DNA from: an uncultured Treponema sp.
GTDB lineage: Bacteria > Spirochaetota > Spirochaetia > Treponematales > Treponemataceae
Direction of reading: 5' to 3'
NCBI GenBank assembly: GCA_934718065.1
Contig: CAKUZR010000010.1
Coordinates: 1-64,000 of the forward strand
Length of the DNA stretch: 64,000 nucleotides
The notes below the pieces were generated by a model. It saw nothing but the letters and a program-made list of their open reading frames with translations. It was not told the origin of the DNA and made no database searches. How positions within the stretch are numbered: the stretch's first letter is position 1; every line of letters begins with the position of its first letter. Shown here one piece after another: positions 57 to 9,536 of the stretch. Made by a program: the position numbers and the translations under genes.

Positions 57-908
57 TTATATTTTACTGCTTACCATGAATTCTTGACTGAAGTAATTAT
101 CTTGACACGCACGATGCATTTTGTGCATGGTTGCACATAATGGACGAGCTGTAAGAAGATTTATTTTTGAATTTGATTTAAAACCTGCTGTTCCATTTGA
201 AAGAATTGTAGGTTTTATCTTCTCACTTAAAAAATATTTCTTAGGAACTTTTTTCTCCAAAACATCAAGAGTTGTTTTTTGTTTATAAATAGAATTCATA
301 TCTGGAATATGTTTATCAAAAACTCTTTTTATATTTTCAGCAGAAAAATCAAATCCAGTCGGAATTTTTTTTGTTGTTGCAAACATGATTATTCGATTTC
401 GTTTTTGAGCTAAGGCAAAATCTTCAGTGTTAAAAATGCTTGAAAAAAATTTATAACCAAGATTTTCCAAATGTTCTTTTATTGTTTTGAAAGTTTTTCC
501 TTTATCGTGTGTATAAAGATTCTTGACATTTTCCAAAAGCACAAATGGTATTTGTTCGCCTTGCTCCTTTTTTACACGTAAGATTTTTTCAATTTCAAAA
601 AACATAGTGCCACGTGTATCAGAAAAGCCTAATTGTTCCCCCATCATACTGAATGGTTGACAAGGGAATCCTCCTGTGAGCAAGTCAAAATGCAAATTGT
701 GTATGTTGTTTTCATCCGAGTTGAAAGTAACAATATCGCCAATTTCAATTTCACCTGTTGTATCATAGTTGGCTTTGTAAGTTTTGATTGCATTTTTTTC
801 AATTTCAGAAAAAGCAATACAATTAAAGGGAATATTAAAATCTTTCTGTATTAGATTAAATGCCTGTCTGAATCCGCCAATTCCGGAAAAAAGTTCTACG
901 TGCTTCAT
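57..908 (-). CDS. DNA (cytosine-5)-methyltransferase, C-terminally truncated
   Basis: An m5C DNA methyltransferase of the HhaI type. The SAM-binding motif ELFSGIGGF is at residues 5-13, the catalytic PCQ is at 82-84 (Cys83), an ENV motif lies near 125 and a QKRNRI motif near 168. The reading frame reaches the motif IX region (ARPLCATMHKMHRACQDNYF) and then stops. The final region with the TPxE and GNAV motifs, about 50-60 residues in relatives, is missing. The ATG overlaps the stop of the upstream methyltransferase by 4 nt (ATGA), so the two are translationally coupled. Loss of motif X probably weakens or abolishes activity. A naturally short subunit or an assembly error at the window edge are alternatives. 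No restriction endonuclease is visible in the window. Confidence 0.85.
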   Translation of the reverse strand: MKHVELFSGIGGFRQAFNLIQKDFNIPFNCIAFSEIEKNAIKTYKANYDTTGEIEIGDIVTFNSDENNIHNLHFDLLTGGFPCQPFSMMGEQLGFSDTRGTMFFEIEKILRVKKEQGEQIPFVLLENVKNLYTHDKGKTFKTIKEHLENLGYKFFSSIFNTEDFALAQKRNRIIMFATTKKIPTGFDFSAENIKRVFDKHIPDMNSIYKQKTTLDVLEKKVPKKYFLSEKIKPTILSNGTAGFKSNSKINLLTARPLCATMHKMHRACQDNYFSQEFMVSSKI

Positions 909-2092
909 AGGAATTTGGCAATTCCTTTGCCAATTGCGTAGGCAAGCTTTACAGGAACAGCATTTCCTATCTGTGCATACCAGCTGTTTTGAGAACCGTA
1001 GAAAATGTAATCGTCTGGAAAAGTTTGAATTCTGGCAGCTTCTCTTGGAGTCAGGCCTCTGCTAAACCATGGATGAATATACATGTTGCAGTCGAACTTC
1101 ATGTGAGAAGTTATTGTTTTGCAGATTTTGTTTTCTTCGAGTTTGAAATATTTATCTTTGAAAATATCATTGCGACTTTTGTAAGGCATAATGTCTGCAA
1201 TGGATTCGTGCAGAGAATTAGCTCCTTGCGGAAGACGCGTGTATATTTCAATATCTCGTGGATTGTTGTATCGATTTTTATGGTTATAAAGTTTGTATAG
1301 TTTTCGATTTCCATTTATGAAACGAAAGAAATCATTTTCTTTATATTCAAAAGAACATTCTGTATAGCCACTATTGGCATCTTCAATTATATTGTTGCCT
1401 TTAACTTTCTTTATGCCTAATTTTGGAAGACCTTCAAGAGCATCTTTTAAAACAAAAGATCTTTTCTTGTTTTTAAAAATTTCATCAAAAACTTTTTCTG
1501 GAGATATGTTTAAACGATTTCCAATTACTATGAATCTTTCTCGATGTTGCGGTACACCGAAATCTTCTGCATATAAAAGGTGAGATGCAAATTGATATTT
1601 TTCATTTTTATCTTTGTTTAGATATGTTTCAAAATTTTCTTTTATTTCGTCCCATTTGTTGGACATTCCTCTGACGTTTTCCATAATGAAAAACTTGGGA
1701 CGAACAACTGAAAGAAGTTGTAGGTATTCTTTGTAAAGTTGATTTCTAGGGTCATCTATGATTCGCTGGCGATTTGCCATAGAAAACCCTTGACAAGGCG
1801 GTCCTCCACAAAGCAAATCCGCATTCTTAAATTTTGGAAGATACTCATCAATTTTTTTATTAAGATCTTTTATGTCACCAACAAAATATTGGTCATCAGA
1901 AAGATTCCTGTTTTTTCTGTAAGTTTCATTGAATTGAGGAACAATCTCATTTACAAAAACCGGAGTAAAACCAGCTTGTTCTAAACCGAGTGAAAGACCT
2001 CCTGCACCTGCGAATAAATCAATAAATGTAAATTTCTTTTGTGAATTACTAACATCATTAATAAGTGAAGTAGCGGAGGATACTTTGTTCAC
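905..2092 (-). CDS. DNA (cytosine-5)-methyltransferase, complete catalytic core, no ATG or promoter in this orientation
   Basis: Transfers a methyl group from SAM to carbon 5 of cytosine in DNA. The motifs are complete and in order: FIDLFAGAGG (residues 23-32), GGPPCQGFS with catalytic Cys100, ENV near 139, QHRERF near 183, TPREAARIQTFP near 350 and QIGNAVP near 376. The only start in the window is GTG at 2092, with no Shine-Dalgarno sequence at a usable distance. The frame stays open for a further 90 nt or so upstream, without an ATG, through the left inverted repeat at 2137-2156. The real N-terminus is probably supplied by inversion of the neighbouring segment, giving 431 residues. It forms an operon with the truncated methyltransferase at 57-908. 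Confidence 0.92.
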   Translation of the reverse strand: MNKVSSATSLINDVSNSQKKFTFIDLFAGAGGLSLGLEQAGFTPVFVNEIVPQFNETYRKNRNLSDDQYFVGDIKDLNKKIDEYLPKFKNADLLCGGPPCQGFSMANRQRIIDDPRNQLYKEYLQLLSVVRPKFFIMENVRGMSNKWDEIKENFETYLNKDKNEKYQFASHLLYAEDFGVPQHRERFIVIGNRLNISPEKVFDEIFKNKKRSFVLKDALEGLPKLGIKKVKGNNIIEDANSGYTECSFEYKENDFFRFINGNRKLYKLYNHKNRYNNPRDIEIYTRLPQGANSLHESIADIMPYKSRNDIFKDKYFKLEENKICKTITSHMKFDCNMYIHPWFSRGLTPREAARIQTFPDDYIFYGSQNSWYAQIGNAVPVKLAYAIGKGIAKFL

Positions 2093-2136: not shown

Positions 2137-2156
2137 AACGAGCGTTTTTTGGGACA
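2137..2156 (+). repeat. left arm of a perfect 20-bp inverted repeat
   Basis: The 20 bases here (AACGAGCGTTTTTTGGGACA) are the exact reverse complement of 2614-2633. On the minus strand they read in the methyltransferase frame as V-P-K-N-A-R, continuing into FLDTKDEGKSSVVSD and then the GTG of the annotated gene. This is the probable recombination site of an invertible segment. Confidence 0.9.
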
Positions 2157-2172
2157 GAAATTATTCCCTTTT

Positions 2173-2201
2173 TTGACGGAAGATAAAATTTATGCTATAC
2201 T
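2173..2201 (+). promoter_or_regulatory. sigma-70 promoter TTGACG-17-TATACT
   Basis: The -35 box TTGACG (2173-2178) and -10 box TATACT (2196-2201) are 17 nt apart. A GGAGGT ribosome-binding site (2215-2220) precedes ATG 2227. This is the strongest promoter near the methyltransferases, and it currently fires away from them. Confidence 0.8.
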
Positions 2202-2226
2202 AGAAAAAATTAGTGGAGGTGATAAA

Positions 2227-2403
2227 ATGACATATGGCAAACCTGTTTCCTGGCGTGATTTTCCAAATACTCCTGGAAAGCGTGTTCTTGAAGAAATTTT
2301 ATTAACACCTCGTCCTGACTTTACTCAACTAGATAAAGACGTGATAGCCTACGAAAAAAAACGCTTGGATGAACGTAAGATAAAGGCAGCAAAGAATAAA
2401 TGA
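2227..2403 (+). CDS. small hypothetical protein (58 aa), possibly antitoxin-like
   Basis: Starts at ATG 2227 behind a strong GGAGGT site, 7 nt after it, and is charged (N-terminal PVSWRDFPNTPGKR, then a Lys/Arg/Glu-rich helix). I do not recognise the family. Its stop overlaps the start of the next ORF by 4 nt (ATGA), which is the layout of many toxin-antitoxin pairs and indicates coupled translation. It lies wholly inside the candidate invertible segment, so its position relative to the methyltransferases would change with inversion. A function as antitoxin is only a guess from size and coupling. Confidence 0.6.
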   Translation: MTYGKPVSWRDFPNTPGKRVLEEILLTPRPDFTQLDKDVIAYEKKRLDERKIKAAKNK

Positions 2404-2561
2404 ACTATTTGCATATCTTTGCGCTGCCTGAAGATAAACTGCTAGAATATTATGAGGAAATGGGATTTTCCAGACTTTCTGCAGAAAAAGAGAAATATGT
2501 TCATTCTCATATAAAACCAAAATATGACACTGACTGCATTTTTATGTATCAGATTTTATAG
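2400..2561 (+). CDS. 53-aa protein resembling the C-terminal part of a GNAT acetyltransferase
   Basis: Starts at ATG 2400, overlapping the previous stop. The stretch YYEEMGFSRLS followed by YVHSHIKPKYD and CIFMYQIL resembles the last strands of GNAT acetyltransferases, where a Y-x-x-x-GF motif precedes the C-terminal beta strands. The acetyl-CoA P-loop (Q/RxxGxG/A) that should come before it is absent, so the protein cannot be a complete enzyme. It may be a remnant left when the invertible cassette formed, or a small regulatory leftover. The family assignment is from pattern memory only. Confidence 0.5.
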   Translation: MNYLHIFALPEDKLLEYYEEMGFSRLSAEKEKYVHSHIKPKYDTDCIFMYQIL

Positions 2562-2569
2562 GAATAAAA

Positions 2570-2635
2570 ATGTCCGTTGAAAAAAATATAACACAGAAAA
2601 ATAGTTTAAAAGTTGTCCCAAAAAACGCTCGTTAA
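2570..2635 (+). CDS. 21-codon ORF; proposed alternative start of the methyltransferase
   Basis: ATG 2570 opens an ORF beginning MSVEKNITQKNSLK and ending V-V-P-K-N-A-R-stop, where the last codons lie inside the right inverted repeat. A weak AGGA site sits 5-6 nt upstream. The repeat is read in exactly the frame used by the methyltransferase on the other side. Inversion would therefore replace the stop with FLDTKDEGKSSVVSD and the rest of the enzyme. As written it would yield only a short hydrophilic peptide. Confidence 0.6.
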   Translation: MSVEKNITQKNSLKVVPKNAR

Positions 2636-8246: not shown

Positions 8247-9536
8247 ATGCCCGACGGGTCGATACCCTTATTGATTTCTCTTTTTGTTCTGATTGCATTT
8301 TCCGCGTTTTTTTCCGCGACGGAAACCGCATACACTTGCACAAGCCGGATCCGGCTAAAATCGCTTGCATCCAGCGGAAACCGAAGGGCGGCGAAAGTCC
8401 TTCAGCTATGCGAAAACTCCTACGACAAGCTTCTAAGCACAATTCTTATCGGAAACAACATTGTAAATCTTTCAGCCTCAACAATAAGCGCGCTTCTTTT
8501 TGCAAAAATTCTTTCCGGGACCGCGTTGAATCCGTCGCTTGTTTCAACAGCCGCAATCACAGTCGCTGTCCTGATTTTCGGGGAAATAACGCCAAAATAT
8601 ATCGGCAAATTCTGCGCTGAAAAATTCGCGATGGCGGTTTTTCCTTTTATTTCCGCGCTGATTTTTATTTTCTATCCGCTGAACATTATTTTTTCACTCT
8701 GGAAAAAACTTATCGTGAAAATTTTCCGCTTCAACTCAAAGGACGTGATTACTGAAGAAGAAATTATGACGATGGTCGAGGAAGCCGCCGAGGACGGAAC
8801 AATCAGGCAGGAAGAAACGAACCTTATCCGCTCCGCAATTGAATTCGACGACCTTGACGCAAAAAATATTCTTGTTCCGCGTGTAAATATCTGCGCTGTT
8901 GAGGAAAATTCCAGCCTTGAAGAAATCATGGAAAAATTTGAGGAAAGCGGATTTTCGCGGCTGCCTGTTTACCAGGGCGAAATTGATTCAATCGTGGGTA
9001 TTATCCACGAGAAGGATTTTTTCAAGCTGACCGCAAAAAAAGACAATGGAACTGAAAAAATCCCGGCAGACAGCAAGTCTCTTCTGAAATCTATAATGCA
9101 GAAACCGTTTTTCACCACGGAAAAGACAAAAATCTCAAAGCTGTTCAGACAGATGCAGAAAGAACGCACGCACATGGCGGTTGTAATCGACGAGTACGGC
9201 GGAACTTCGGGAATTGTAACCATGGAAGACATTCTTGAAGAACTTGTAGGCGAAATTTACGACGAGCACGACAGCGGCGAAAGCGAATGCATAAAACCAT
9301 GCGGAGAAAACTGCTTTATTGTGAGCGGCGAAACTCCTCTGAACAAAATGATGAAATATTTCAACCTTGAAGAAGAAAATTCAACCGGCTCAAACACCGT
9401 AAGCGGCTGGATTATCGAAACGCTCGGCGACTTTCCGCAGGCCGGCCAGAAACTGCGCCTTCAGGATAAAATAGAAATCGAAGTCCTAAAAACCGACAAA
9501 AACACCGTCCAAAGCGTAAAAGCGGTGAAAATGTAA
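8247..9536 (+). CDS. CorC/HlyC-type membrane protein with CNNM and CBS domains
   Basis: 429 residues behind GGAGG. The N-terminal CNNM/DUF21 domain (residues ~1-180) has three or four membrane segments and the FFSATETAY motif. Two CBS domains follow (ILVPRVNICAVEE and MQKPFFTTEKTKISKLFRQMQKERTHMAVVIDEYGGTSGIVTMEDILEELVGEI, given here in pieces by their family signature DEYGG and EDILEE). The C-terminus is a CorC_HlyC domain ending in a V-K-A-V strand. Relatives move Mg2+ or Co2+ or protect against ion stress; old annotation calls them hemolysins. The closest known role is Mg2+ homeostasis. Confidence 0.9.
   Translation: MPDGSIPLLISLFVLIAFSAFFSATETAYTCTSRIRLKSLASSGNRRAAKVLQLCENSYDKLLSTILIGNNIVNLSASTISALLFAKILSGTALNPSLVSTAAITVAVLIFGEITPKYIGKFCAEKFAMAVFPFISALIFIFYPLNIIFSLWKKLIVKIFRFNSKDVITEEEIMTMVEEAAEDGTIRQEETNLIRSAIEFDDLDAKNILVPRVNICAVEENSSLEEIMEKFEESGFSRLPVYQGEIDSIVGIIHEKDFFKLTAKKDNGTEKIPADSKSLLKSIMQKPFFTTEKTKISKLFRQMQKERTHMAVVIDEYGGTSGIVTMEDILEELVGEIYDEHDSGESECIKPCGENCFIVSGETPLNKMMKYFNLEEENSTGSNTVSGWIIETLGDFPQAGQKLRLQDKIEIEVLKTDKNTVQSVKAVKM

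Follow-up and report, generated by a model that had tools for sequence, protein, structure and literature searches.

How is a DNA methyltransferase gene read when its own frame offers almost nothing to start from? This question is raised by a locus in the window, i.e. the whole stretch of 64,000 nucleotides from an uncultured Treponema sp. that was analysed here. Positions 2137-2633 of the window very probably constitute a site-specific inversion switch, which comprises a predicted promoter, two cargo ORFs, and the start and first 21 codons of the methyltransferase. The switch is in the OFF orientation here, and both orientations are found among relatives; by analogy, inversion would be expected in the source strain as well. 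Components of the locus are as follows.

57..908, minus strand: second C5 methyltransferase of the operon (MTase2), C-terminus missing (PF00145, 3.4e-57)
905..2092, minus strand: body of a C5 cytosine DNA methyltransferase (MTase1; PF00145, 4.3e-73)
2137..2633, no strand: proposed invertible segment in the OFF orientation, leaving the methyltransferase without start codon (from in-silico inversion, inverted counterparts in relatives, and the database protein P0243)
2137..2156, plus strand: left arm, dyad site at ~2127-2156, core dinucleotide 2141-2142
2173..2201, plus strand: predicted promoter (consensus match), TTGACG-17-TATACT, TG preceding the -10 box, now pointing away from the methyltransferase
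2227..2403, plus strand: ORF1, 58 aa, in the antitoxin position, GGAGG ribosome site at 2215-2219
2400..2561, plus strand: ORF2, 53 aa, overlapping the ORF1 stop; remnant of a GNAT-fold toxin family (190 aa), from its C-terminal end
2570..2635, plus strand: leader ORF MSVEKNITQKNSLKVVPKNAR, ATG at 2570, AGGA ribosome site just upstream
2614..2633, minus strand: right arm, dyad site at ~2614-2643, TGTCCCAAAAAACG-CT-CGTTAAAAAAGACA, core 2628-2629

The initial annotation described a perfect 20-bp inverted repeat around 457 bp, and this description was confirmed. The two AACGAGCGTTTTTTGGGACA arms are 100% identical, and the whole segment spans 497 bases. When up to 3 mismatches were allowed, no other match to this sequence occurred in the 64 kb (two matches in 0 of 100 shuffles), and the arms are the only pair of at least 18 bp among perfect inverted repeats spaced 60-5000 bp apart in the window. 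Perfect inverted repeats of 18 or 20 bp were not obtained in any of 40 dinucleotide shuffles. As in Mpi-type switches, inverted repeats bound a short segment, beyond what is expected by chance. An integron/attC reading of the arms, prompted by the small cargo ORFs, was dropped: the arms are inverted, not direct, and an attC-like structure was not seen by eye.

Reading of frames across the arms agrees equally well with what had been noticed in the sequence, namely a methyltransferase without ATG on one side and an ORF running into the repeat on the other. The MTase1 frame (GTG 2092 to 905) stays open upstream through the left arm, and scanning this open frame for ATG, GTG, and TTG disclosed only the isolated GTG 2092. 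At the opposite end, the ORF starting with ATG 2570 enters the right arm in frame and terminates in a TAA whose first base is the final one of this arm. When inversion was performed by script, leader and MTase1 merged into a single frame (MSVEKNITQKNSLKVVPKNARFLDTKDEGKSS...) of 431 residues counted from ATG 2570, the length anticipated for the fused enzyme. The promoter is a prediction: TTGACG-17-TATACT on the plus strand is a consensus match, in a region with 24 promoter-like sites in 6 kb, compared to 14.4 in shuffles.

In the present orientation, the predicted cargo promoter points away from the methyltransferase, the leader ends at its TAA, and the methyltransferase frame enters the left repeat with no start codon. 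According to the proposed mechanism, inversion would align promoter, cargo, and leader with the methyltransferase, in the fused form seen in relatives, and a single transcript and a single protein would then start within the segment. Both the use of the predicted promoter and the ensuing change in methylation are expected consequences of this layout.

To find relatives of the locus, arms were searched in 200 genomes of the genus, which located them next to methyltransferases in G171 and G199, and RUG314 (L001; whole genome G001) was found by a contig scan. G001 has identical perfect 20-bp arms at the same methyltransferase, with different cargo, and is also in the OFF state. In comparison of the G001 locus (L122) with that of G171 (L125), flanks are colinear for several kb on both sides and the segment alone is inverted, with 98.4% identity over 760 bp. 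The same picture is obtained with G199 (L127), at 93.2%. The leader MNEK[VP]VPKNAR of G171 and G199 is continuous with a C5 methyltransferase of another type (PF00145 for G171), and this fused enzyme precedes McrB-like and McrC-like genes. In L122, McrB-like and McrC-like restriction subunits (PDLC03547, 1.3e-55, and PDLC03549, 3.1e-60) come after two methyltransferases; in the window, such McrB-like and nuclease genes downstream would fall to the left of base 1.

A second locus, with BrnT/BrnA cargo, repeats the pattern, as the segment alone is inverted between L126 (G171) and L128 (G199), at 88% over the main block. Its target starts an Ssp-type operon (first gene BrxP, 1.5e-80; SspB, 1.7e-59; SspC, 5.8e-116). 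L128 has this target fused to the leader (MTEPVTKNDRFSAQ...), and L126 has it leaderless. Both orientations, as known for Mpi-type switches, are thus found in L122 versus L125/L127, in L126 versus L128, and in the database proteins P0005/P0243 described below. Related genomes are therefore not limited to one orientation, since the G001 segment is inverted in G171 and G199, and the occurrence of equivalent segments in both orientations indicates that flipping likely switches the methyltransferase on and off.

Some variation was observed at the sites themselves. In G199 (L127, ~8677-8691), the far core is one base shorter (CGCTCGTT to CGCCGTT) with the segment in the ON state, which may be locked. 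In UBA1233 (L003, upstream of 8001), a methyltransferase with a fixed leader and a decayed site (STKNLGLKDTKEG) lies behind DUF3990-like genes recognized by eye; this is possibly a switch locked ON. Furthermore, the same site and the NARLNEQ junction precede three types of methyltransferase, in L122 (G001), L125/L127 (G171/G199), and L130 (G146), as if methyltransferase alleles had been exchanged beside the site.

Cargo of the window was characterized by comparison with other segments. ORF1, for which 39 homologues were found, is 77% identical to a 60-aa gene of L225 that precedes a GNAT-fold toxin, and gave no family match in a Pfam/NCBIfam scan. At 82%, residues 4-53 of ORF2 correspond to 141-190 in the L225 protein of 190 aa. 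ORF2 thus covers no more than the final quarter of a family member and, compared to GNAT type II toxin-antitoxin systems, is not a complete toxin. Complete copies exist in L225, L226, and L228, and relatives of ORF2 were detected in 48 of 196 genomes, some of them beside cores. Neither ORF2 nor the 190-aa family matched Pfam. The structural model of the family (pLDDT 85) has TacT1, GmvT, AtaT, and KacT as top Foldseek matches in PDB, with E of about 1e-9 to 1e-8, and by this predicted fold the family is assigned to GNAT-fold toxins. In other segments, Pfam identified BrnT/BrnA (L126), RelB/YoeB (L187), and DUF3990 (L234). An assignment of the L122 cargo in G001 as a RelE/HigB pair was unsupported, both genes being without Pfam or NCBIfam match. 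Toxin-antitoxin pairs are thus the cargo of several segments, and the window retains a toxin remnant only.

Reduction is visible in the methyltransferase operon, too. MTase2 has 283 aa compared to 361 aa in its L122 counterpart (~78 residues short), and no continuation was found in any frame of the first 56 bases of the window. Together with the ORF2 remnant, this truncation suggests that the operon may be decaying in the source strain. It could be argued further that the repeat is a relic and the locus is locked, and the base lost from the far core in G199 would fit such an explanation. We consider it unlikely, because drift is expected in arms free of selection, and the window arms are perfect, with the leader frame, the ribosome site, and the MTase1 domain all intact.

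Public databases provided an additional view of the inversion switch. Homologues of MTase1 number at least 7192 among at least 7999 scored candidates, and the best 120 of these were examined. In 10 of them (P0002-P0011) the protein starts with a leader ending in [VA]P[KT]NAR, so that close homologues do not all begin at the GTG, devoid of an MSVEKN-like leader. The exact 21-residue MSVEKNITQKNSLKVVPKNAR is the N-terminus of four of the best 120 (P0002, P0005, P0006, and P0007), and P0003 differs from it by one residue. After the leader, P0002 and P0005-P0007 continue as LNE[RQ]EKSSFTF and not as FLDTKDEGK, showing that the leader is there fused to a near relative of MTase1. Relatives thus have the fused N-terminus as regards the leader, but the exact junction of the window (..NARFLDTKDEGK, 431 aa) is absent among the best 120 homologues. 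In P0008, the G001 leader MNEKVVPKNAR is joined to a G001-type enzyme.

The opposite state is represented by P0243, which is 98% identical to ORF1 of the window and reads across the promoter end of the segment. The other strand of its N-terminus can encode the P0005 junction (VPKNARLNEREKSSFTF); one of five candidate N-termini fits, and none of 2000 shuffled tails. With P0243 as OFF and P0005-P0007 as ON, cargo of the window type occurs in both states in public data. The initial view of promoter, cargo, and first codons flipping as one unit, currently OFF, is supported by these fused N-termini and by the inverted relatives.

These data also bear on the question whether the enzyme is made in both orientations, either from GTG 2092 or from a non-standard start, for example the ATT directly ahead of TCTGTCCC, the switch altering only promoter strength or the N-terminus. 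The present orientation does keep the frame open through the left arm, and the database methyltransferase P0011 starts with MSVPTNAR, directly at the repeat, indicating that some OFF-like junctions may still get a start there. The open frame, however, offers no ATG, GTG, or TTG apart from the isolated GTG 2092, and the predicted promoter points the other way. In addition, gene callers place the start of OFF-type copies within the catalytic domain, as would be predicted for an OFF copy (P0014 and L122, both at MFAGAGG), and the contigs of P0014 and P0248 are both 190,855 long. Synthesis in both orientations is, in our opinion, quite improbable.

To assess how widespread the inversion switch is, 38 stretches were taken. 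Both segment ends are present in 14 of them, which with the window gives 15 segments (11 genomes plus the window), including the same locus in different genomes. In all 15, a leader beginning with ATG crosses the core in frame at one end. The far end lacks an in-frame ATG in the 13 segments read in register; far ends of L187 and L188 are out of register and, judged by eye, have a stop just before the core. The ON state, with the leader in frame into a long gene, was observed in seven segments (L125, L127, L128, L132, L187, L226, and L228), and the OFF state, with a long leaderless frame at the other end, in five (the window, L122, L126, L225, and L234). In the remaining three (L129, L134, and L188) the leader ends without fusion to a gene. 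L189 is a sixteenth segment, with a 19-bp repeat around its own recombinase. Four contig ends in G001 and G146 (L123, L124, L130, and L131) coincide with the final base of a site, which is where assembly would be expected to fork between two orientations.

Exact core pairs in inverted orientation up to 10 kb apart have equal dinucleotides in seven of seven cases (CT, AA, TT, CT, AC, AC, and GA). Lone core matches were dropped as sites, since the backwards control matched in many genomes likewise and single cores are uninformative. A site pair was not found in the remaining 19 of the 38 stretches, a partner site in the lone-core stretches L135, L231, L232, L233, L236, and L237, or a window-type repeat pair in L133, L136, L227, L230, L235, and the recombinase loci L190-L196. 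L229 (3285-10339) has an Mpi-like recombinase together with toxin-antitoxin and DUF3990-like genes between a Type IV-like gene (by eye) and a methyltransferase; despite the like gene layout, no repeat pair was found there.

A small mobile cassette with terminal inverted repeats and a toxin-antitoxin pair, inserted in differing orientations and never flipped in place, would account for the different cargo of the window and G001 within identical arms, the different toxin-antitoxin pairs in relatives, and the lack of a recombinase in the window, but it is highly improbable given that the cargo and its place are shared by G001, G171, and G199, their flanks being colinear and the segment alone turned, that in-frame reading through the repeat at the leader end would not be kept by mere insertion, and that dyad arms with matched 2-bp cores are as in serine recombinase sites.

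No recombinase was found in the 64-kb window. Sites of the proposed switch are dyads of ~30 bp around a 2-bp core, the form known for serine invertases. A serine recombinase of the Mpi family, acting in trans, would probably carry out the recombination. Resolvase-family genes are present in 13 of 14 genomes tested. Tyrosine recombinases were considered and set aside: they were detected in all 14 and are not discriminating, and a dyad with a 2-bp core better fits a serine enzyme. All three recombinases scored against the Mpi-family equivalog NF009949 passed its cut-off of 272 (292, 298.6, and 294). Genes of this kind are located inside the segments L132, L187, L188, and L189, beside L226, and 2.4 kb from L129. 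The repeat core is AAACGCTCGTT in the window and AAACGTTCGTT in L132, both similar to ARACGTTCGT as given in PMC8375218.

The G001 recombinase was found at 79% identity or more in six of 196 genomes (G001, G146, G199, G171, G026, and G018). Exact AACGNNCGTTTTTTGGGACA arms were detected in five of 200 (G001, G146, G171, G199, and G018), all within the six recombinase carriers; G026 has the recombinase and no arm match. In G001, G146, G171, and G199, the gene of the candidate clade is away from any detected site. One Mpi clade therefore tracks window-type arms, with the limitation that kinship confounds the agreement between sites and recombinase.

The same device would operate on other defence operons of the genus, with a core dinucleotide that differs by locus, and a segment lying between two such operons would select one or the other. 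This layout was observed in L132, L234, and L189, where the segment is located between a Type IV methyl-directed enzyme (PDLC03658; 8.1e-228, 7.3e-160, and 1e-156, respectively) and a C5 methyltransferase. In L234, a restriction subunit was also matched (REase_II, 1.7e-72). In L132, it is the Type IV gene that continues the frame of the leader; the methyltransferase side is open and leaderless. In G001, the Type IV and methyltransferase kinds are on two contigs, each ending at a site (L123 and L124). On one side of L226, an HNH nuclease (PF13395) is fused; the opposite side has an open frame without leader that resembles by eye the first gene of the Ssp locus.

Location of segments between a methylating restriction-modification operon and a Type IV nuclease indicates that the switch may be either/or, and from this layout we infer mutually exclusive expression of the Type IV nuclease and the methyltransferase operon. 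Extended to the genus, the proposal would be one of rotary defence switches, in which toxin-antitoxin cassettes in Mpi-type segments carry the promoter, start codon, and leader for defence operons, with a separate 2-bp core for each locus, and some of them choose between restriction-modification and Type IV enzymes so that the two self-incompatible systems would not be on at once. We give this extended proposal an even chance.

Comparison with known systems helps in defining what is specific to the Treponema segments. Similarity to Mpi-type promoters of Bacteroides fragilis includes inverted repeats around a short segment with a predicted promoter, the NF009949 recombinase in Treponema relatives, the core AAACGNNCGTT, which resembles ARACGTTCGTN, the Mpi repeat as stated in PMC8375218, and the occurrence of several loci per genome, Mpi being described as inverting 13 regions in PMC4747536. 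In contrast, targets in Treponema are restriction and other defence operons and not capsules, the core dinucleotide varies by locus, Mpi is a putative actor, and the segment holds coding cargo and the start codon of its target, which means that a flip fuses genes in addition to turning the promoter.

Inversion of hsdS in Type I restriction systems likewise alters a DNA-methylating defence by DNA inversion, as described in PMC11892184 and PMC5903667. It swaps specificity domains between inverted hsdS copies, whereas here the enzyme body is untouched and its start is given or withheld. The segments read involve no hsdS, and in the window the target is a C5 methyltransferase (PF00145) and the segment consists of two small ORFs and the leader. 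The two consecutive C5 methyltransferase genes in one operon of the window, together with the McrB-like/McrC-like subunits added in L122, are like LlaJI, presented in PMC1459862 as having two 5mC methyltransferases plus McrB-like and nuclease subunits. Differences from LlaJI as described there are that expression is tied to an invertible segment, that MTase2 is truncated, and that restriction genes would lie outside the window.

The 190-aa cargo family shares its predicted fold, and its position after a small upstream gene, with tRNA-acetylating GNAT toxin-antitoxin systems (TacT, AtaT, KacT, and GmvT). It differs in that the window has only the toxin tail, the upstream gene of 58-60 aa is without family match, and the pair would be the cargo and promoter of a switch. 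In intragenic invertons, an inversion site inside a reading frame exchanges the 5' end of a gene. The site is within the frame and the 5' end is swapped here as well, but the flipped end brings a promoter and an operon of toxin-antitoxin type, and many defence loci share this arrangement of the leader.

Defence systems that vary by phase are generally regarded as doing so through slippage at repeats or exchange of specificity domains. In the open-licence PMC literature, we found no account of invertible toxin-antitoxin segments giving start codons to defence genes, a weak form of absence. The locus is very probably a new form of a general type of inversion switch that is already known. In this form, which recurs at several Treponema defence loci, promoter, cargo, and start codon flip together, and it may choose between incompatible systems. 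As one flipped unit supplies the promoter, the start codon, and the first residues, ON and OFF states differ by a gene fusion readable from sequence, and orientation can be determined from the leader junction of any assembly or set of reads. The toxin-antitoxin cargo suggests how the segment is kept, and why its promoter would be active in both orientations. If working as it looks, the either/or arrangement would be a genetic answer to the problem of one lineage keeping both a methylating restriction-modification system and a nuclease against modified DNA.
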